Made by a program: the position numbers and the translations under genes. Source: a bacterium (GTDB lineage: Bacteria; Hinthialibacterota; Hinthialibacteria; OLB16). From it: a stretch of 64,000 bases of DNA. Position 1 is the first letter of the stretch; each line of letters opens with the position of its first letter. The notes beneath the pieces are model-generated. The model did no database searches, was not told the DNA's origin, and saw only the letters and a list, made by a program, of their open reading frames with translations. Location: the NCBI GenBank assembly GCA_022072055.1, contig JAJVIK010000002.1:231615-295614 (forward strand), given 5' to 3'. Positions 1,759 to 10,274 of this stretch are shown here, one piece after another.

Positions 1759-3696
1759 ATGGGTTCCATGGGCAGACTTGAGGAAATCCTGGAAGAATAC
1801 CTGACCGCGTCCCCGGCAAGGAAAAGAGATTGTTTCAATCTTGCGGTCAAGGCCCTGAAGGCGGAGCTGGCGGCGGAACGATTTGAGGAGGCGGCGAGCG
1901 GCCTGGCAAGAATGGTCGCAGTGGACCTCGATTACCCCTCCGCACGGACCCTGATCGGCCTCCGCGAACGGCTCCAGGGGCGCGTGGACACGACCGGCCC
2001 CTCCGCGCGGCTCGCCATCCTGGGCGGGTTCACCACGACACAGCTTGCCTCCCTGATCGAGCTGTTCCTTTTCGCCGCCGGGGCGAAAGTGGAGATCCTG
2101 GAGTCGGAATATGGCATCTTCCGCCAGGATATCCTCGATCCGAATTCCCCGCTCTATCGCTTCCATCCCAATCTGGTCTACATCGCGGTGGGGCGTCACG
2201 ATCTAAGGACCCTCCCCTCGCTTGGAGAGGACGCCCAAGGCGCGCGAGAATGGATGGACACCGAGTTCTCTCAATGGGCCGGCTTGTGGGAGGTCCTGCA
2301 GGATCGCCTCGGATGCCAGATCATCCAGAACAACTTCGATCCTCCCCCCTGGAGAGTTCTGGGCAATTACGAGACCACTCACCCCTCCAGCCCAAGCCGA
2401 CTCATCCAGGATCTCAACCGCAAGCTCGCGGACGAGGCGCCGGCCCATGTGCTTGTGCATGATGTCGGCGAGCTGGCCGCCGCCGCTGGGCGCTGGGCTT
2501 GGGGAGACACCCGGTATTACTTCGAGGCCAAGCTCCCCTGCGCCCCGGAGTTGTTGGTCGATTACGCCCACAGTGTCGCCTCGCTGGTCCTGTCCCAACT
2601 GGGACTCGGGAAAAAATGCCTTGTGACCGATCTGGACAACACGCTGTGGGGCGGGGTGATCGGGGATGATGGGCTTGGGGGCATCCGACTCGGGCATGGG
2701 AGCGGCGAAGGGGAAGCCTATGTCGAGTTTCAGCGCCACCTGAAGGGGCTCCAGAGCCGCGGGGTGATCCTCGCGGTGTGCAGCAAGAACAGCGAGGAAT
2801 TGGCCCGCGAGCCGTTCGAGAAACACCCGGAGATGGCTCTCCGCCTGGAGGACATCTCCTGTTTTGTGGCCAATTGGGAGGACAAGGCCGCCAACTTGCG
2901 CGCCATCGCGCGGACCCTGGATATCGGGTTGAATTCGCTGGTGTTTGTCGATGACAATCCGATGGAGCGCGCGCTGGTCAGGCGGCTCGCCCCGGAAGTG
3001 GCCGTCCCGGAAATACCGGAGGATCCCGCCGGCTTTATCCGGGCGCTGGAGAAACACCGCTATTTCCAGGTGACCTCCCTGGCGGGCGAGGATTTCCGTC
3101 GGACGGATTTCTATCGCGCGAACGCCGAGCGGCGCGAGGCGGAGAGCGCGGCGGGCAGCTTGGACGAGTTTCTCGGCTCGTTGAGGATGACCGCGAAAGT
3201 CGCCCCGATCGACTCGACCAACCTGGAGCGCTGTGTCCAGCTGATCCAGCGCTCGAACCAGTTTAACCTGACCACTCGGCGGAGGGCCTCCGGCGAGGTG
3301 CTGGCCCTGGTCGAGGATTCGCGTTGGGTGACCGTCGCGGTCTCCCTGGCGGACCGCTTCGGGGACCATGGGCTGATTTCGGTGGTTCTGGCCCGCCTCG
3401 AAGGCGAGGTTTTCCGGATCGACACCTGGCTGATGAGCTGCCGCGTGTTGAAACGCGGGGTGGAGCGTTTTCTGCTCAATCATCTGGTGAGCGAGGCGGG
3501 GAAACGTGGGGCGGAAAAGCTGATCGGGGAATACATCCCCACCGCGAAGAATGGGCTGGTCCGGGATCATTACTCCGATCTGGGGTTCACCCGGATTGGC
3601 GAGGAACAGGATGGGAGCTCCCGGTGGGAGCTCGATATCACGGGGGGTTGGACGCCGCTTCCAACCCACATTGAGGAGATGCAAGCGAATGGATGA
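1759..3696 (+). CDS. FkbH-type HAD-IIIC phosphatase/acyltransferase with C-terminal GNAT-like domain
   Basis: About 645 residues. The N-terminal 270 residues resemble the SGNH-like region of FkbH family proteins. The HAD core has D291-L-D293-N-T-L-W-G-G, a conserved C-S-K-N element with C341, and the F-V-D-D-N-P motif (D398, D399, N400), followed by a GNAT-like C-terminal region containing the family block S-N-Q-F-N-L-T-T. Characterised FkbH proteins take 1,3-bisphosphoglycerate, dephosphorylate it and load glyceryl onto an acyl carrier protein. The next gene is an ACP whose start overlaps this stop by 8 bases, which strongly supports that chemistry. The start is uncertain: ATG 1759 is chosen over TTG 1726 and ATG 1768, and none has a good ribosome binding site. 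Confidence 0.9.
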   Translation: MGSMGRLEEILEEYLTASPARKRDCFNLAVKALKAELAAERFEEAASGLARMVAVDLDYPSARTLIGLRERLQGRVDTTGPSARLAILGGFTTTQLASLIELFLFAAGAKVEILESEYGIFRQDILDPNSPLYRFHPNLVYIAVGRHDLRTLPSLGEDAQGAREWMDTEFSQWAGLWEVLQDRLGCQIIQNNFDPPPWRVLGNYETTHPSSPSRLIQDLNRKLADEAPAHVLVHDVGELAAAAGRWAWGDTRYYFEAKLPCAPELLVDYAHSVASLVLSQLGLGKKCLVTDLDNTLWGGVIGDDGLGGIRLGHGSGEGEAYVEFQRHLKGLQSRGVILAVCSKNSEELAREPFEKHPEMALRLEDISCFVANWEDKAANLRAIARTLDIGLNSLVFVDDNPMERALVRRLAPEVAVPEIPEDPAGFIRALEKHRYFQVTSLAGEDFRRTDFYRANAERREAESAAGSLDEFLGSLRMTAKVAPIDSTNLERCVQLIQRSNQFNLTTRRRASGEVLALVEDSRWVTVAVSLADRFGDHGLISVVLARLEGEVFRIDTWLMSCRVLKRGVERFLLNHLVSEAGKRGAEKLIGEYIPTAKNGLVRDHYSDLGFTRIGEEQDGSSRWELDITGGWTPLPTHIEEMQANG

Positions 3697-3943
3697 ACTG
3701 CGCGCGCAGCTGCAGGAGGTGTTCCGCGAGGTATTCGATGATGAGGAGATCGCCCTCCGGGACGAGATGACCGGGAATGACATCGAGGGGTGGGATTCGC
3801 TCATGCATCTCAATCTGATTATCGCCGTGGAAAGCCGCTTTGGGGTCAAGTTCGCCACCTCCGAAATCTCCAACCTCCGCAATGATGGGGAGAATGTGGG
3901 CAGCATGGTGAGCCTTCTGGCCAAGAAACTGGGGCGCGGTTAG
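3689..3943 (+). CDS. Acyl carrier protein
   Basis: An 84-residue acidic, helical carrier protein. The phosphopantetheine site is the D-S-L motif in G-W-D-S-L-M-H (S37). The start is fixed by a GAGGAG ribosome binding site at 3673-3678 and by the 8-base overlap with the upstream FkbH-type gene. The next gene starts two bases after the stop. This is a stand-alone carrier next to FkbH, MBOAT and methyltransferase genes, not the fatty-acid ACP, whose usual fab neighbours are absent. It most likely carries the acyl unit formed by the FkbH-type protein. Confidence 0.9.
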   Translation: MDELRAQLQEVFREVFDDEEIALRDEMTGNDIEGWDSLMHLNLIIAVESRFGVKFATSEISNLRNDGENVGSMVSLLAKKLGRG

Positions 3944-3945
3944 CC

Positions 3946-4842
3946 ATGTGCGGATACCTCGACGAAATCCAGGAAGTCGCTCGCAAGGAGTTCGGGCTCA
4001 CCGAGGGGAGCTTCATCAAAAATCGAAAACTCTTTGGGAGAGCCTGGGAGCAGGAGTTCGACTCGTTCCTACGCGCGGCGTTCGTGGACGGCGCGGAGTA
4101 TCGGAAGGCGCTTACCGGCTACACCACTTATATCGTGGATGTGATGCGCCAACTGGTGGCCTTCCAAAAGGATGGGACCTACGCCCCGCTGACCTATGAG
4201 GAGGCCACCCACAAGGTCTACCAGAACGAGGACCGGATGATGAACGAATACCTTCCGGGCCACCTCATCAGTCAGTTCCTATGGGTCCACCATTACCGTC
4301 ACCTTCTGTTTTTCAGGACCTTCTTCCTCCGGGACATGGCCCTTTCCGCGGACCAGCGCTTCCACGATGTCGGAGTCGGGACCGGCTTTTATTCGAGCGT
4401 GATCCTGAACGGCCTTCCCGGCGCGCGGGGTCATGGCTGGGACCTCAGCCCCCATTCGCTCAAGTTCACCGAACGTCTGCTTTCCCGGTTCGGGACCGCG
4501 GAGCGGTACACCTCGCATTTGAGCGACATACTCACGGCCCCGGATATCGAGCCGCTTCCGTTCGTGGTTTCCGTGGAGGTGCTCGAGCACCTGGAGGATC
4601 CCCTCACCTTCCTGATCGGACTCAGGAAGATGGTCGCGCCGGGCGGCAAGGCCTTCATCACCGCCGCGCTCAATTCCCCGCACGAGGACCATGTGTACCA
4701 CTATCGCACCGAGCTCGATGTGCTGGACCAGGTGCGAGCCGCCGGGTTCCATGTGGAAAATGCCTTTTCGGCGTACGCCTATCCCCCCACCAAGCGCTCG
4801 CCCCTGGTTCCTTCGGTGGAGGCCGTGATTGTCACCACTTAG
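3946..4842 (+). CDS. Class I SAM-dependent methyltransferase
   Basis: 298 residues. The SAM-binding motif I is D141-V-G-V-G-T-G147 and the post-motif strand is F-V-V-S-V-E-V-L-E-H (206-215), typical of Rossmann-fold methyltransferases. The N-terminal 120 residues form a helical extension that may read the substrate. The gene starts two bases after the ACP stop, so translation is probably coupled. In methoxymalonyl-ACP pathways an O-methyltransferase acts on an FkbH-derived glycerate unit; a comparable role here is an inference from gene order, not from sequence similarity to FkbG. Confidence 0.85.
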   Translation: MCGYLDEIQEVARKEFGLTEGSFIKNRKLFGRAWEQEFDSFLRAAFVDGAEYRKALTGYTTYIVDVMRQLVAFQKDGTYAPLTYEEATHKVYQNEDRMMNEYLPGHLISQFLWVHHYRHLLFFRTFFLRDMALSADQRFHDVGVGTGFYSSVILNGLPGARGHGWDLSPHSLKFTERLLSRFGTAERYTSHLSDILTAPDIEPLPFVVSVEVLEHLEDPLTFLIGLRKMVAPGGKAFITAALNSPHEDHVYHYRTELDVLDQVRAAGFHVENAFSAYAYPPTKRSPLVPSVEAVIVTT

Positions 4843-4875
4843 CGCGGCGCGCGTGGGCGGCATGAACGGACGGGA

Positions 4876-6120
4876 ATGAATGTCGCGAGCCTTGAATTCC
4901 TTCTCGGCCTGTTTGCCTTGGGCGCGGCCTTCTTCCTGCTCGCAGGGCATCTCTCACGCCGATGCGCGTTGTTCGTTCTGAACCTCGCGGTTCTCTATCT
5001 GGCGAACCCCGCTCCGCTCAGTTGGATCCTCTTGGGGGTCTTCCTGGTTACGGGGTATGGAACCGCCCTGTGGGCGCGGGCGCGATCCGCCAAGGGCGCG
5101 GTGGCGCTCTATCTCGCCGTCTTCACCTTGGTTTTTGTGATCCTCAAGCGCTACGACTTTCTTCTTCCGCTCCTGCCCGGTCTTATTCTCGAGCATCCCA
5201 TCCTGATCACCGGATTGAGTTATATTTTCTTCCGGCAGGTCCACTTCATCGTGGATGCGATCCAGGGGCAGATCGAGAATCCATCGTTCTGGACTTATCT
5301 GAACTATCAACTCAATTTCTTCTGCCTGCTCTCCGGACCGATTCAGCGATACCAGGATTTTGCGAGCTACTGGGTTGCCCCAGAGCCGCCGCCGGCCTCT
5401 CGGGAGGAGGTCCTTCGAGCCTTCCTGCGGATCCTGATGGGGGTGGGCAAGGTGACTGTTTTGGCCGCCGCGCTGCTCATGGCCTACGACCGGATGGGGG
5501 AATGGCGATTAACCTGGCTTTCTCAGGCGAATGCAGCCCCTCTGCCGGTCACCCTGGCGTGGTTCTTGGGGATGCTCTACGCCTACCCGCTGTATGTCTA
5601 TCTGAACTTCGCGGGGTACTGCGATATCGTGATCGGGGGCGCGTTTCTGATCGGAATGAGACTGCCGGAGAACTTTGACCGCCCTTACCTGTCCCGAAAC
5701 CTGATTGATTTCTGGACACGCTGGCACCGCACATTGGGTTTCTGGGTGCGCGACTACATCTTCACCCCTCTCTATATGGCCTTGGCGAAACGTAGTCCCC
5801 AAGCCGCCTCCAGGTGGGCCTTTGCCTGCTATTTTGTGGCCTTCTTTCTGGTGGGGATGTGGCATGGGTCTAATCTGAAGATTGTGGTCTTCGCGCTTCT
5901 CCACGGAATCGGCGTCTCAGCGGCCAAACTGTGGGAAGCCTGGCTGCTCAAACGCGGTGGAAGAGCGGGCCTTCGGAAGTATCTTGAATCCCGCCCGATC
6001 CGCGCGCTTGCGGTGTTCCTCACACTGCATTACTTTGTCTTCACGGTTCTATTCTTCCCGACTCACCTCGCGGCGGAGGCGACTCCGCTGCATGCCCTCC
6101 TGGCTTGGTTGCAGTGGTGA
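4876..6120 (+). CDS. MBOAT-family membrane O-acyltransferase (AlgI/DltB type)
   Basis: 414 residues with about ten membrane spans. Hallmarks of the bacterial MBOAT family are W280-T-R-W283-H284-R and G-M-W-H330-G-S-N, where H330 matches the invariant catalytic histidine. AlgI, PatA and DltB-type enzymes move acyl groups from cytoplasmic donors to extracytoplasmic polymers with a periplasmic SGNH-like partner. Such a partner is encoded at 6734. The upstream FkbH/ACP genes suggest that the donor is an acyl-ACP, as in DltB, which uses D-alanyl-DltC. The acceptor is unknown. Confidence 0.92.
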   Translation: MNVASLEFLLGLFALGAAFFLLAGHLSRRCALFVLNLAVLYLANPAPLSWILLGVFLVTGYGTALWARARSAKGAVALYLAVFTLVFVILKRYDFLLPLLPGLILEHPILITGLSYIFFRQVHFIVDAIQGQIENPSFWTYLNYQLNFFCLLSGPIQRYQDFASYWVAPEPPPASREEVLRAFLRILMGVGKVTVLAAALLMAYDRMGEWRLTWLSQANAAPLPVTLAWFLGMLYAYPLYVYLNFAGYCDIVIGGAFLIGMRLPENFDRPYLSRNLIDFWTRWHRTLGFWVRDYIFTPLYMALAKRSPQAASRWAFACYFVAFFLVGMWHGSNLKIVVFALLHGIGVSAAKLWEAWLLKRGGRAGLRKYLESRPIRALAVFLTLHYFVFTVLFFPTHLAAEATPLHALLAWLQW

Positions 6121-6167
6121 GTGGAGTGGGGAATCCGTGAGCAAAACCGCCGGAAGAGAGACGCGCG

Positions 6168-6602
6168 ATGAACCTTGAACAGCTCTCGTTCCATCACTTC
6201 GGACTTGCGGTCAAAAGCCCGGAGAGCGCCCTCCGTTTGCTCAGGGGTATGGGTTACACCGTGGGGGAGACACTGCGCGAGCCGATCCAGAATGTCCGGC
6301 TGATTCTGTGTACCCACCCCAGCGCGCCGGATGTGGAGATCATTTTTCCAACCGAGACCCCCGGGCCGGTGGATGCCATCCTTGCCAAATCGAGGGAGAG
6401 AATCTACCACCTGTGCTACGAAATCGACGATCCCGAGGCGACACTGGCCGAGATCGAGGCCAAGGGGCTCCGGGTAGTTTGCGTCTCGCCGCCCCAACCC
6501 GCACTGCTCTTTGGGAACCGAAAGGTCTCGTTTCACTATGTGGAAGGGTTTGGTTTGATTGAACTCCTCGAGAGAGGGAAGGGAGCGGAGCCGCATGTCT
6601 GA
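6168..6602 (+). CDS. VOC (glyoxalase/epimerase) superfamily protein
   Basis: 144 residues with the paired beta-alpha-beta-beta-beta modules of the vicinal-oxygen-chelate fold. Candidate metal ligands fall where expected: H10 in S-F-H-H-F-G-L-A-V, H81 in I-Y-H-L-C-Y and E132 in G-L-I-E-L-L. The overall pattern is closest to methylmalonyl-CoA epimerase-like VOC proteins. In this operon it could epimerise or isomerise the ACP-bound unit, which is an inference. Its last 8 bases overlap the small membrane-protein gene that follows. Confidence 0.8.
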   Translation: MNLEQLSFHHFGLAVKSPESALRLLRGMGYTVGETLREPIQNVRLILCTHPSAPDVEIIFPTETPGPVDAILAKSRERIYHLCYEIDDPEATLAEIEAKGLRVVCVSPPQPALLFGNRKVSFHYVEGFGLIELLERGKGAEPHV

Positions 6603-6732
6603 ACGAATCGCGCGCTTCCTGTCCAAACGCCCGACCCTGGCCGTGGCGGTGGTGACTCTCCTTGCGGTCCTGGTCACTCTGGTCCTGCTCGCGGTCCGTC
6701 ACGAGCCGGCGGTTCTTTACGAGGCATTCTGA
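6595..6732 (+). CDS. Small single-span membrane protein (45 residues)
   Basis: The ATG at 6595 overlaps the VOC stop by 8 bases, and its TGA is followed one base later by the ATG of the SGNH gene. This tight packing supports a real gene. The product has a short basic N-terminus (M-S-E-R-I-A-R-F), one hydrophobic helix (about residues 13-34) and a short tail ending L-Y-E-A-F. The layout recalls the roughly 50-residue DUF5989 proteins found beside surface-modification genes, but the resemblance is too weak to assign. It could be an accessory subunit for the MBOAT. Confidence 0.7.
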   Translation: MSERIARFLSKRPTLAVAVVTLLAVLVTLVLLAVRHEPAVLYEAF

Positions 6733-6733
6733 G

Positions 6734-7777
6734 ATGAGCAAGGCAAGCCTTGAAGTGTCCGTGGCCGATGCCCACCGGTTCCAGGTCGGAGTCTCGCTGC
6801 TCCTGCTCGTGGCCGTGTGCGCCACCTTCGCGCTCGTGGACCTGCTTGCTCAAGACCGGACCCTTGAAGCCTGGTTTCGGGACCGTGAACTGGAGTTCAG
6901 GGAACAGGCGAATCTGGTCTTCCCAAACAACGGCTATTTTGTCGATTTCGAGGACCGAATGCTCCTCGATGAGCTCCCTCACGCCGACTATTCTCATGGT
7001 GGAACCTATTTCTTTGGCTCCTCGAACCTCAAGTGGGGGTTGATGACCTGGACTCTGCCGGAGGAGCAGCGGCGCTTGGTGCACAACTACGGCATCGGGG
7101 CCACGAATCACACCACCCAGTTTCAATTCATCCGATATCTTGTCGACCACGAAGGCTGGCTCGCCGCCGGGGGGGAAAAGACCCACGCGGTGCTCGCCGT
7201 GTGCTACCGAAGCGCGGTGGAGAAGGGGGATTTCTTTCCGAGCCTGTGGACCCGTCACGGCTTCTACTCTTACAATCAGGAACGGGGGATCACCCCCCGT
7301 GGAATCCCAAGAGTCCTCAGGAACTACAGGATCGATCGGGAACGCTGCGCCGGTTTTCTTTCGCTGGCCGCCAAGTCTGCTTGGTGGGCGCTCTGGGGAC
7401 GCGAGGCGCGCGCGGCCCCGAGGGACACCACGGTTTACCGAGCGAGGCTGGTCGAAACCATCGAGTCCACCGATTGGCGGAAGGTCATGGACCAAGAGGT
7501 CGCGGAACTCGGGAGAATGCTGGACTACCTCCGCGAGCGCGGAGTTCGGGTTTCGGTGGCGCTCCTGCCGCGGGTGAGCTGGACCCACGAGCTTCCCTAT
7601 CCCGCGCGGTATTTGGAGGGCGTGACCCGAATCTGCCGAGCTCGCTCGACTCCACTCCTCGATCTCTCGGCGCTCCTTCCGGATGAGGAGTTCGTGGATT
7701 CCTCGCATGTCAATTTGACCGGCCTCCGCAAGCAGCACTCGGCCCTGATGTCCTTCGCGGGAGTTCCCACGCTCTGA
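6734..7777 (+). CDS. Membrane-anchored SGNH-like protein, probable partner of the MBOAT
   Basis: 347 residues from the ATG at 6734, one base after the preceding stop. One N-terminal membrane span (about 18-36) is followed by a large extracytoplasmic domain. F-F-G-S-S-N (G95-S96-S97-N98) sits where SGNH proteins keep the nucleophile block, and D322-S-S-H325-V-N-L-T-G matches the D-x-x-H catalytic block with its usual following residues. AlgJ/AlgX, PatB and DltD-type proteins with this fold accept the acyl group from an MBOAT and pass it to the glycan. The local identity to any one of them looks low. Confidence 0.75.
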   Translation: MSKASLEVSVADAHRFQVGVSLLLLVAVCATFALVDLLAQDRTLEAWFRDRELEFREQANLVFPNNGYFVDFEDRMLLDELPHADYSHGGTYFFGSSNLKWGLMTWTLPEEQRRLVHNYGIGATNHTTQFQFIRYLVDHEGWLAAGGEKTHAVLAVCYRSAVEKGDFFPSLWTRHGFYSYNQERGITPRGIPRVLRNYRIDRERCAGFLSLAAKSAWWALWGREARAAPRDTTVYRARLVETIESTDWRKVMDQEVAELGRMLDYLRERGVRVSVALLPRVSWTHELPYPARYLEGVTRICRARSTPLLDLSALLPDEEFVDSSHVNLTGLRKQHSALMSFAGVPTL

Positions 7778-7830: not shown

Positions 7831-8598
7831 ATGAAATGGATTCGCAAGCGCGTCTTGAGCGGGGAGCTTCTCTCCGGGACCTTCTTGAACCTGGGATCCG
7901 GCCTGACCGCCGAAATCGCGGGGCAGGCTGGGTTTGACCATGTGATCCTCGACCTGGAGCACGGTTCCGGGGACCAGGAGAGTTTGGTTGCCCAGCTCCA
8001 GGCGCTGGAGGCCACATCGGCGGCGGCCGTGGTCCGAGTGGCGTCCAACGAAGCGCCGCGTTTCAAGCGCGTCCTCGACCTGGGGCCGAGCGGAGTGATG
8101 GTCCCGATGGTGAACACGGCGGAAGAGGCGCGCCAAGCGGTGGCCGCGAGTCGCTACCCGCCCGAGGGAAACCGAGGCGTGGCCGGATGGAACCGCGCCT
8201 GCCGATTCGGGCCGGGTTTCGAGGAGTACTTCAAGGAAGCCAACCGGAACCTGCTGGTCGTGGTTCAGATCGAAACCCCCGAGGCCCTGGGAAACCTGGA
8301 CTCCATCGCAGAGGTCGAGGGTGTGGATGTCCTCTATGTGGGACCCACCGACTTGAGCGTCTCGCTCGGAATCCCGCGACAGTTCGAGCATCCCCACATG
8401 CAGGAAGCTTACGACAAGGTGGTGGCGTCGGCGCGCAAGCATGGGAAAACGGCGGGTATTCTCGCCCCCCGATATGAACTTCTTGAAGGGTTTATCGGCA
8501 GGGGCTTCACTTTTGTCAGCGTCTCCTCCGATGGCGCGGTGGTGGCCGAGGGGTTATACCGTCTGGCCGCTGGCTTTGCTCAGTTCCGGACCCGCTAG
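7831..8598 (+). CDS. HpcH/HpaI family class II aldolase
   Basis: 255 residues covering the whole family length. L-D-L-E-H-G (H44, the probable base), E148 in Q-I-E-T-P-E and D174 in G-P-T-D-L-S-V-S-L-G (metal ligands) are all present. Family members cleave 4-hydroxy-2-oxo acids such as 2-keto-3-deoxy-sugar acids to pyruvate or similar products plus an aldehyde. It begins a block of three small-molecule enzymes downstream of the acylation genes. It could serve sugar-acid catabolism or, less likely, supply a three-carbon unit. Confidence 0.88.
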   Translation: MKWIRKRVLSGELLSGTFLNLGSGLTAEIAGQAGFDHVILDLEHGSGDQESLVAQLQALEATSAAAVVRVASNEAPRFKRVLDLGPSGVMVPMVNTAEEARQAVAASRYPPEGNRGVAGWNRACRFGPGFEEYFKEANRNLLVVVQIETPEALGNLDSIAEVEGVDVLYVGPTDLSVSLGIPRQFEHPHMQEAYDKVVASARKHGKTAGILAPRYELLEGFIGRGFTFVSVSSDGAVVAEGLYRLAAGFAQFRTR

Positions 8599-8619
8599 AG
8601 AAAGAGGCAACAGACCCGC

Positions 8620-9483
8620 ATGGCGAAATCGATCATCGTTGCCGGGGTTCAGATGGATGTCGCGCTGGGAAATCCGGAGGCGAACCACGCCAAGATCGAG
8701 GCGCGCCTGGCGGAGGCGGCTGGAATGGGAGCCGCGCTCGCGGTTTTCCCGGAGTGCGCGCTGGCGGGTTATTGTTTTGAATCCCTCGATGAGGCGCGGC
8801 CTTTCGCTGAAACGGTTCCCGGTCCCAGCACCTCACGTTGGTCAGAGACCTGTCGGAAGCTGAACCTCCATGCGGTTGTGGGGATGCTCGAGACGGATGG
8901 AGAGCGGCTCTTCAACGCCTGCGTTTTGGTCGGGCCGAAGGGTCTGGTCGGCGCTTACCGGAAGATTCACCTCCCCATGTTGGGGGTGGACCGCTTCACC
9001 ACCCCGGGAGATCGCCCCTTCGAGGTGTGGTCCATCGGGGCGGCGAGAGTGGGCATGCACATCTGCTACGATGGGGCCTTTCCCGAGGCCCCGCGCGCGC
9101 TCGCGCTCCTCGGCGCGGACCTGATAGTCCTCCCCACCAACTGGCCTCCGGGCACCGAGTGCACCGCGGGGCATGTTCCCAACACCCGCGCCCTCGAAAA
9201 CAATGTCTACTACATGGCGGTGAATCGGGTGGGCGTGGAGCGCGGTTTCACCTTCATCGGTTGCAGTAAGATCTGCGACACCGATGGTGGGGTGTTGGCC
9301 GAGGCGCCGCACGCGAGCGAGGAGATTCTCCATGCCGAAATCGATGTGGACCGCGCCCGGAACAAGCGCCTGGTTCGGGTCCCCGGTAAGCATGAAATCC
9401 ACCGTTTCGCGGACCGTCGCCCGGATATGTATGGACCGATTGTGAACCTCCCGATCCCACCCAGACAGGGGAGGTCGGAGTGA
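8620..9483 (+). CDS. Carbon-nitrogen hydrolase (nitrilase superfamily)
   Basis: 287 residues. The catalytic triad is intact: E45 in F-P-E-C-A-L-A-G-Y, K115 in Y-R-K-I-H-L-P and C149 in H-I-C-Y-D-G. Members hydrolyse amides, N-carbamoyl compounds or nitriles; the lack of nitrilase-specific features favours an amidase. The gene lies 21 bases after the aldolase gene and its stop TGA overlaps the next start in a TGATG arrangement. The neighbouring creatininase-family gene suggests joint action on a cyclic or linear amide. Confidence 0.88.
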   Translation: MAKSIIVAGVQMDVALGNPEANHAKIEARLAEAAGMGAALAVFPECALAGYCFESLDEARPFAETVPGPSTSRWSETCRKLNLHAVVGMLETDGERLFNACVLVGPKGLVGAYRKIHLPMLGVDRFTTPGDRPFEVWSIGAARVGMHICYDGAFPEAPRALALLGADLIVLPTNWPPGTECTAGHVPNTRALENNVYYMAVNRVGVERGFTFIGCSKICDTDGGVLAEAPHASEEILHAEIDVDRARNKRLVRVPGKHEIHRFADRRPDMYGPIVNLPIPPRQGRSE

Positions 9484-10274
9484 TGCTTTGGCAGGAACAG
9501 AGCTGGCCTCGGATCAGGGAGTTGGACAAGCGGATTCCGGTGGTGGTCCCGCTCGGCTCTTTGGAGCAGCACGGTCCCCACCTCCCGTTGATCGTGGACA
9601 CCCTCCAGGTGACCGCGATCGCCGAGGCGGCTGAGCGGCGGCTTGCGGACAGAGTCCTCCTACTCCCGACCCTCTGGCTTGGCTCTTCCCATCACCATCT
9701 CGACTTTCCGGGGACAGTGAGCCTGCTCCCCTCGTTGTACAGCCAGGTGATCGAGTCCATCGCGCTCTCGATCCTCCAGGCCGGGTTCCGAAGGGTTGTG
9801 TTCCTGAATGGGCATGGCGGCAACAAGGTCCCGGTCGCCCAAGCCCTTTCCGAGTTGGTGTGCGGAAGCGAGATAGCCGAGGATGCCTATTTGGCCCTTG
9901 CCACTTGGTGGGAGCTCAATCCGGAGGCTTTCCGCGTGGGGATGGAGACCCCCGCGGTGTCGCATTCGTGCGAGTATGAAACCTCGCTGGTGCTGGCGCT
10001 CAGACCTGACCTGGTCCGGATGGATCGCGCGCGGAAAACCCCCATGGCGCTCGACAACGAGTGGGTCAAAACAGAAAGCCCCCAGAGCAGCCGTGTCAGC
10101 ATCTATCGCCGGTTCCGGCGTCTCACCGCGCCAGGTTCGATGGGCAGCCCCCTCTCGGCCAGCGCGGAGAAGGGGAATCGGTTGCTCGCCGCCGTGGTCG
10201 AGGAGCTCGTTCGCTTCCTGACCGACTTCTTCCAGTGGCCCGAATTGCCCCCGCTGGGTCCCGACCTCGGTTAA
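9483..10274 (+). CDS. Creatininase family amidohydrolase
   Basis: 263 residues from ATG 9483, which overlaps the preceding TGA; GTG 9480 is possible. A GGGGAGG ribosome binding site precedes it. The family metal residues are visible: E28 and H30 in S-L-E-Q-H-G-P-H, D39 in I-V-D-T, H111 in N-G-H-G-G-N, and acidic E164/E166 in C-E-Y-E-T-S. The family includes creatininase, formamidase-type enzymes and MftE-like peptidases, so the substrate is undefined. The coupling with the nitrilase-like gene suggests consecutive amide-bond hydrolyses. Confidence 0.85.
   Translation: MLWQEQSWPRIRELDKRIPVVVPLGSLEQHGPHLPLIVDTLQVTAIAEAAERRLADRVLLLPTLWLGSSHHHLDFPGTVSLLPSLYSQVIESIALSILQAGFRRVVFLNGHGGNKVPVAQALSELVCGSEIAEDAYLALATWWELNPEAFRVGMETPAVSHSCEYETSLVLALRPDLVRMDRARKTPMALDNEWVKTESPQSSRVSIYRRFRRLTAPGSMGSPLSASAEKGNRLLAAVVEELVRFLTDFFQWPELPPLGPDLG

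Follow-up and report, generated by a model that had tools for sequence, protein, structure and literature searches.

A bacterial operon combining an FkbH-type glyceryl loader with the parts of a probable Dlt-type transmembrane acylation relay

What is the function of an operon that joins an FkbH-type glyceryl-loading enzyme to a membrane apparatus for acyl export? The question is raised by a 64,000-nucleotide stretch of bacterial DNA (the window; contig JAJVIK010000002.1, positions 231,615 to 295,614), in which seven genes of the same direction (+ strand) occupy positions 1759-7777 in the order FkbH, acyl carrier protein (ACP), methyltransferase, MBOAT, VOC protein, a small membrane protein and an SGNH protein. 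All seven were judged real, and the analysis establishes their motifs and the conservation of a core of them across phyla. From 5′ to 3′, the junctions are an 8-bp overlap, gaps of 2, 33 and 47 bp, a second 8-bp overlap and a 1-bp gap. The tight packing noted in a preliminary description of this DNA is borne out (overlap or 1–2 bp spacing at four of six junctions), as is its statement that a polyketide synthase (PKS) is missing, none being recognised among the genes scanned. Our best explanation is a transmembrane acylation relay of the Dlt type that uses another loader, FkbH plus ACP. Taken as a whole we regard it as moderately probable; the Dlt-type relay itself is highly probable, and a glycerate-derived cargo with 1,3-bisphosphoglycerate as its source appears fairly likely.

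The key feature is a membrane microprotein of 45 amino acids (aa; 6595-6732, +), at first labelled simply "mini-TM", a label that missed its likeness to the DltX shuttle. It comprises a single hydrophobic transmembrane (TM) helix and its exact C-terminal end is AVLYEAF. The described motif is FXYXXF, the tyrosine of which carries the acyl group; PatA has this acyl-Tyr motif fused to its own C-terminus and otherwise acts like DltX (PMC12148441). DltX controls from S. aureus and L. crispatus end in FIYNEF, and the orthologous microproteins of two further loci, L034 (Armatimonadetes/Armatimonadota) and L036 (Verrucomicrobiales, Verrucomicrobiota), in VLYQAF and VLYKGF, respectively. The window MBOAT (4876-6120, +; PF03062), at 414 aa short like DltB, ends in HALLAWLQW and lacks the FXYXXF motif that PatA/AlgI-type proteins bear at their own C-terminus. 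With the motif absent from the MBOAT yet present on the microprotein, the latter would supply what the former is missing; MBOAT relatives without a microprotein carry the motif fused at their own C-terminus.

How specific is such an ending? We collected open reading frames (ORFs) of 30–85 aa with a strongly hydrophobic stretch from 801,177 bp, comprising the window and the fetched loci, which had been picked for MBOAT or FkbH and in which MBOAT surroundings make up ~1% of the total. An exact YxxF end was present in 10 of 263 such ORFs, every one in an MBOAT operon: nine overlap the MBOAT gene or sit ≤53 bp from it, and the tenth, that of the window, lies 474 bp from the MBOAT gene, with the VOC gene intervening, and 1 bp from the SGNH gene. 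Four of the ten are without FkbH within the fetched stretch, and the split shuttle therefore extends beyond FkbH systems. These four (L077:6449-6565, L079:8453-8608, L080:6505-6735 and L083:6730-6936) adjoin short MBOATs outside both Dlt and FkbH systems. A 2025 paper states that a separate shuttle microprotein is absent from pathways other than Dlt, which makes the window operon a new variant (PMC12148441).

Is the arrangement peculiar to one contig? Five genes form a core, FkbH-ACP-MBOAT-microprotein-SGNH, whose order is kept in L034, where no tailoring gene lies between or beside the core genes, and in L036, where a MaoC/SDR fusion gene is added upstream. Because the core repeats in identical order in other phyla, the operon is not a chance grouping; of the module initially described, these five genes are shared, while all seven genes in this order were seen in the window alone. 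Searches for FkbH in 386 relatives and, within the phylum of L034, in 291 genomes yielded 36 places, around which up to 20 kb were taken, some stretches ending at contig ends. Besides the window and L034, MBOATs lie near FkbH in L074, L081, L088, L089, L101 and L118. With the window and L034 excluded, as they had been brought in by MBOAT similarity, this corresponds to 6 of 34 places against ~0.2 expected by chance (our own estimate, based on a 4-Mb genome with a single MBOAT and on neighbourhoods of 20 kb).

The layout of these relatives varies. L101 reads methyltransferase-FkbH-ACP-MBOAT-microprotein(FIYAGF)-SGNH, with two glycosyltransferases adjoining; FkbH-ACP is divergent from SGNH-microprotein(TVYGGF)-MBOAT in L118 and convergent with SGNH-microprotein(LVYRRF)-MBOAT in L081; and in L088 FkbH was the only one of the FkbH-ACP pair seen. 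Plasmid pTM1 of Tistrella mobilis carries an MBOAT ending in EFIYAGF and a neighbour on one strand, with ACP, methyltransferase and FkbH alongside, and Sinorhizobium meliloti pSymB holds a VOC-like gene, an MBOAT ending in PFLYQGF, an SGNH-like protein (annotated as a TonB receptor), ACP and FkbH. Like these two, the MBOATs of L074, L088 and L089 have the motif fused at the C-terminus. In S. meliloti 1021 (L120:6335-8397), the FkbH gene is split into two overlapping frames, and in other S. meliloti strains it is a single open frame. Links between FkbH and MBOATs seem to have arisen on several occasions, a pattern that speaks for function over inheritance alone.

This recurrence bears on a simpler account, in which MBOAT, microprotein and SGNH protein draw on acyl-CoA to export ordinary acetyl (or some other group), and FkbH, ACP, methyltransferase and VOC protein form a separate neighbouring pathway. 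Bacterial MBOAT-SGNH pairs have mostly been described with acetyl-CoA (PMC12148441), and the four split microproteins without a nearby FkbH fit such an export. However, FkbH is tied to MBOATs of several separate lineages, well above chance, and in the window the two sets of genes are interleaved, with methyltransferase and VOC genes between the core genes. We consider the acyl-CoA account very improbable.

What, then, would load the relay? Members of the FkbH family load glyceryl from D-1,3-bisphosphoglycerate onto an ACP, with removal of the phosphate. The window protein (1759-3696, +), an FkbH-type glyceryl-ACP synthase with a HAD-IIIC phosphatase and an acyltransferase domain, scores 285 bits against TIGR01686 (cut-off 147) and also matches PF21211, and its residues D291, D293, T295, D398, D399 and C561 show no variation across 21 FkbH proteins, one of them from Streptomyces. 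The ACP (3689-3943, +), a putative DltC counterpart, gives weak matches to PP-binding (E 0.005, under the cut-off), ACP and DltC models; its GWDSL motif is intact, and it shares 61% identity with the ACP of L034. Family scans recognised no gene for the adenylating D-Ala ligase DltA in the operon, where FkbH takes the loader place. The best reading is that FkbH and ACP stand in for DltA and DltC.

Do the export proteins fit? Profile matches of the window MBOAT in the PDB are to DltB only; against TIGR04091 (DltB) it scores 187 bits, under the cut-off of 375 and hence below the DltB equivalog level. Its motifs RWH (H284) and WHG (H330) are invariant in the alignment. In the MBOAT tree, the window protein forms one group (97/97) with those of L034, L036, L118, L081, L083, L074, L075, L035 and Tistrella, apart from a separate clade (100/100) of three DltB sequences, and this group holds split as well as fused forms of the motif. 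Ordinary fused MBOATs surround those of L088, L089 and S. meliloti in the tree, and the long branch of L101 could not be placed. Of the group members, L035 (Eremiobacterota) was rejected as an FkbH system: its genome gave no FkbH match, although it encodes an ACP, an SGNH-like protein and an MBOAT with the fused motif. L075 (L075:3832-8994) encodes an MBOAT with fused LIYGGF; a phage portal protein gene lies ~1.5 kb upstream of it, and a prophage possibly carries it. The membrane-anchored SGNH protein (6734-7777, +) had no match in a Pfam scan. It has one N-terminal TM helix and conserved G-S-S (serine motif) and D-S-S-H motifs, and the PDB structures that its predicted model matches include SGNH hydrolases and DltD; on fold and motifs it fits the role of a DltD-like acyltransferase partner.

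Together, this suggests a relay of four steps. FkbH would dephosphorylate D-1,3-bisphosphoglycerate and transfer glyceryl to the ACP, probably via its conserved cysteine; the methyltransferase, perhaps with the VOC protein, would modify the ACP-bound group, most likely to O-methylglyceryl; and the short DltB-like MBOAT would relay the ACP-borne acyl group to the tyrosine of the microprotein's VLYEAF end at the outer face, a step we propose because the motif mechanism has been demonstrated in DltX and PatA. From acyl-Tyr the group would move to the serine of the membrane-anchored SGNH protein and from there to an acceptor outside the cytoplasm, which is most likely a glycan. The interpretation offered at the outset is partly supported: its analogy with DltC and DltB is strongly so, and with the DltX-like microprotein the operon has counterparts of all five Dlt parts.

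How does this compare with known systems? Like DltABCDX, which D-alanylates teichoic acids, the operon combines a carrier protein, a short MBOAT with DltB-like structure matches, a separate microprotein with a C-terminal tyrosine and an SGNH protein. It departs from Dlt in having FkbH instead of DltA, MBOATs in a clade apart from DltB, a microprotein that the DltX profile does not match, two extra tailoring genes and a cargo predicted to be glycerate-derived rather than D-Ala. PatAB and AlgIJ share the YxxF acyl-Tyr shuttle logic and the SGNH partner, but in them the MBOAT itself bears the motif and acetyl-CoA donates the group with no carrier protein taking part, whereas the window operon encodes an ACP and keeps the shuttle on a protein of its own (PMC12148441). 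Tetronate and methoxymalonyl-ACP modules likewise pair FkbH with a stand-alone ACP, and with a methyltransferase in the case of methoxymalonate (PMC7489565); unlike them, the window has neither a PKS, nor a FabH-like tetronate synthase, nor either dehydrogenase, and it does have an export relay.

What would the cargo be? The class I SAM methyltransferase (3946-4842, +; PF08242) has FkbH-adjacent homologues in L101, Tistrella and Paroceanicella, and a search of 72,556 plasmids returned as its only long matches the FkbH-linked methyltransferases of Tistrella and Paroceanicella. The VOC protein (6168-6602, +; Glyoxalase_4, PF13669) is of the methylmalonyl-CoA-epimerase/glyoxalase type, scoring 40 bits against TIGR03081, under the cut-off of 115; VOC genes also lie near FkbH in Paroceanicella and S. 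meliloti. Each of the two proteins recurs with FkbH/ACP in other lineages, and both are optional to the core. The two dehydrogenases leading to hydroxymalonyl-ACP have no gene in the operon, and because of their absence and the association of the methyltransferase with FkbH, O-methylglyceryl is the simplest prediction for the window; for L034 it is glyceryl.

The same relay might nevertheless carry a further-converted group, an epimerised or C-methylated acid in the window (through methyltransferase and VOC protein) or lactyl in relatives with MaoC and SDR. The epimerase/glyoxalase type of the VOC protein fits this version, as does the predicted model of the methyltransferase, of low confidence (pLDDT 61), whose matches are generic and include both C- and O-methyltransferases, with a C-methyltransferase first; with matches of this kind, the structure was dropped as a discriminator between O- and C-methylation. 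MaoC and SDR genes accompany FkbH in L036, L088 and L089, and MaoC with a B12 radical-SAM protein in L074, so that a lactyl-type group is possible in the first three, by analogy with bryostatin loading. Yet dehydratase and dehydrogenase genes are absent from the window operon, and L034 does without tailoring genes; a further-converted cargo is, overall, unlikely.

For the O-methylglyceryl cargo we favour, there is precedent on a surface glycan: flagellar pseudaminic acid of C. jejuni bears di-O-methylglyceric acid, and cj1302, a gene with an FkbH domain, lies in the glycosylation locus (PMC7099621, PMC3068675); we infer that this gene makes the methylated glycerate group. An MBOAT-SGNH relay has not been described in that system. 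In open-licence literature we found no report on FkbH with O-antigen, or on MBOAT with acyl carrier protein, glyceric acid and polysaccharide; earlier reports may exist.

Where would the acyl group go? A glycan acceptor is suggested by neighbouring genes: the glycosyltransferases of L101, the capsular polysaccharide and rkpR export genes ~4 kb from the S. meliloti cluster, and the membrane proteins resembling GT-C enzymes that are encoded upstream of the window operon. The upstream neighbour (14-1624, +) is a polytopic protein with several predicted TM helices and a DE-motif loop, YDEAVYADLARE; Pfam and NCBIfam scans gave no match, and its likeness to GT-C glycosyltransferases is putative, as is any membership of the operon. 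A small secreted natural product, made or decorated by the operon, would be another destination. Aeruginosin-type clusters, including that of suomilide, hold FkbH, an O-methyltransferase and an MBOAT, where FkbH loads glycerate, the methyltransferase methylates it and the MBOAT acylates a sugar (PMC13122637, PMC10143770). Against this, the operon and its flanking DNA yielded no recognisable gene for a nonribosomal peptide synthetase or a PKS, an SGNH protein together with a shuttle microprotein is a mark of transfer outside the cytoplasm, and the S. meliloti and L101 relatives adjoin polysaccharide genes; we rate a natural product the least probable of the alternatives.

Other FkbH modules may serve other acceptors. 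On a Paroceanicella profunda plasmid (L122:5483-10585), ACP-FkbH-methyltransferase-VOC is followed by a 439-aa protein without a Pfam match and then mprF; no MBOAT was recognised at this locus, whose acyl-ACP module may serve a different acceptor. A Niveispirillum plasmid (L123:5806-10286) carries an FkbH-ACP-WcbI-MaoC/SDR cluster, with a sulfotransferase gene farther upstream, and FkbH may there also feed a WcbI-type polysaccharide acyltransferase.

Several observations weigh against a Dlt-type relay fed by FkbH. The first motif position of the window microprotein is V, not F. On anatomy the microproteins would work like DltX, yet for membership in the DltX family the profile is negative: none of the eight tested matched PF12459 at E ≤ 1, and both DltX controls did. 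Beyond the nearest three, relatives of the microprotein are mostly very divergent. The core is rare and its distribution patchy: in relatives of the same class as the window genome no comparable FkbH turned up at E ≤ 1e-60, and orthologues were confined to L036 among 388 genomes of its phylum and to L034 and L118 (G871) among 291 of the L034 phylum. The neighbourhood of the window operon showed no dedicated glycan locus, and the identities of cargo (glyceryl or O-methylglyceryl) and acceptor are themselves inferred.

A promoter scan gave no signal exceeding chance. Downstream of the operon (7831-10274) lie co-directional genes for an HpcH/HpaI aldolase, a carbon-nitrogen hydrolase and a creatininase, the last two overlapping, which probably form a separate catabolic unit.

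What does this imply for surface acylation? We see an even chance that these loci represent a class of systems in which FkbH draws 1,3-bisphosphoglycerate, a metabolite of glycolysis, onto a carrier protein, tailoring ranges from none through O-methylation to dehydration and reduction to lactyl, and a Dlt-like relay exports the product, the separate DltX-like microprotein being a general, fusible module, not a peculiarity of Dlt. The finding contradicts the published view of the separate shuttle microprotein as restricted to Dlt (PMC12148441), and a short MBOAT plus a tiny ORF with a YxxF end offers a search rule for such systems. If true, the acyl-Tyr shuttle mechanism reaches a new acyl source, past teichoic acids and acetylation, and glycerate-type esters would be predicted on surface polymers, with S. 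meliloti pSymB as a culturable model.

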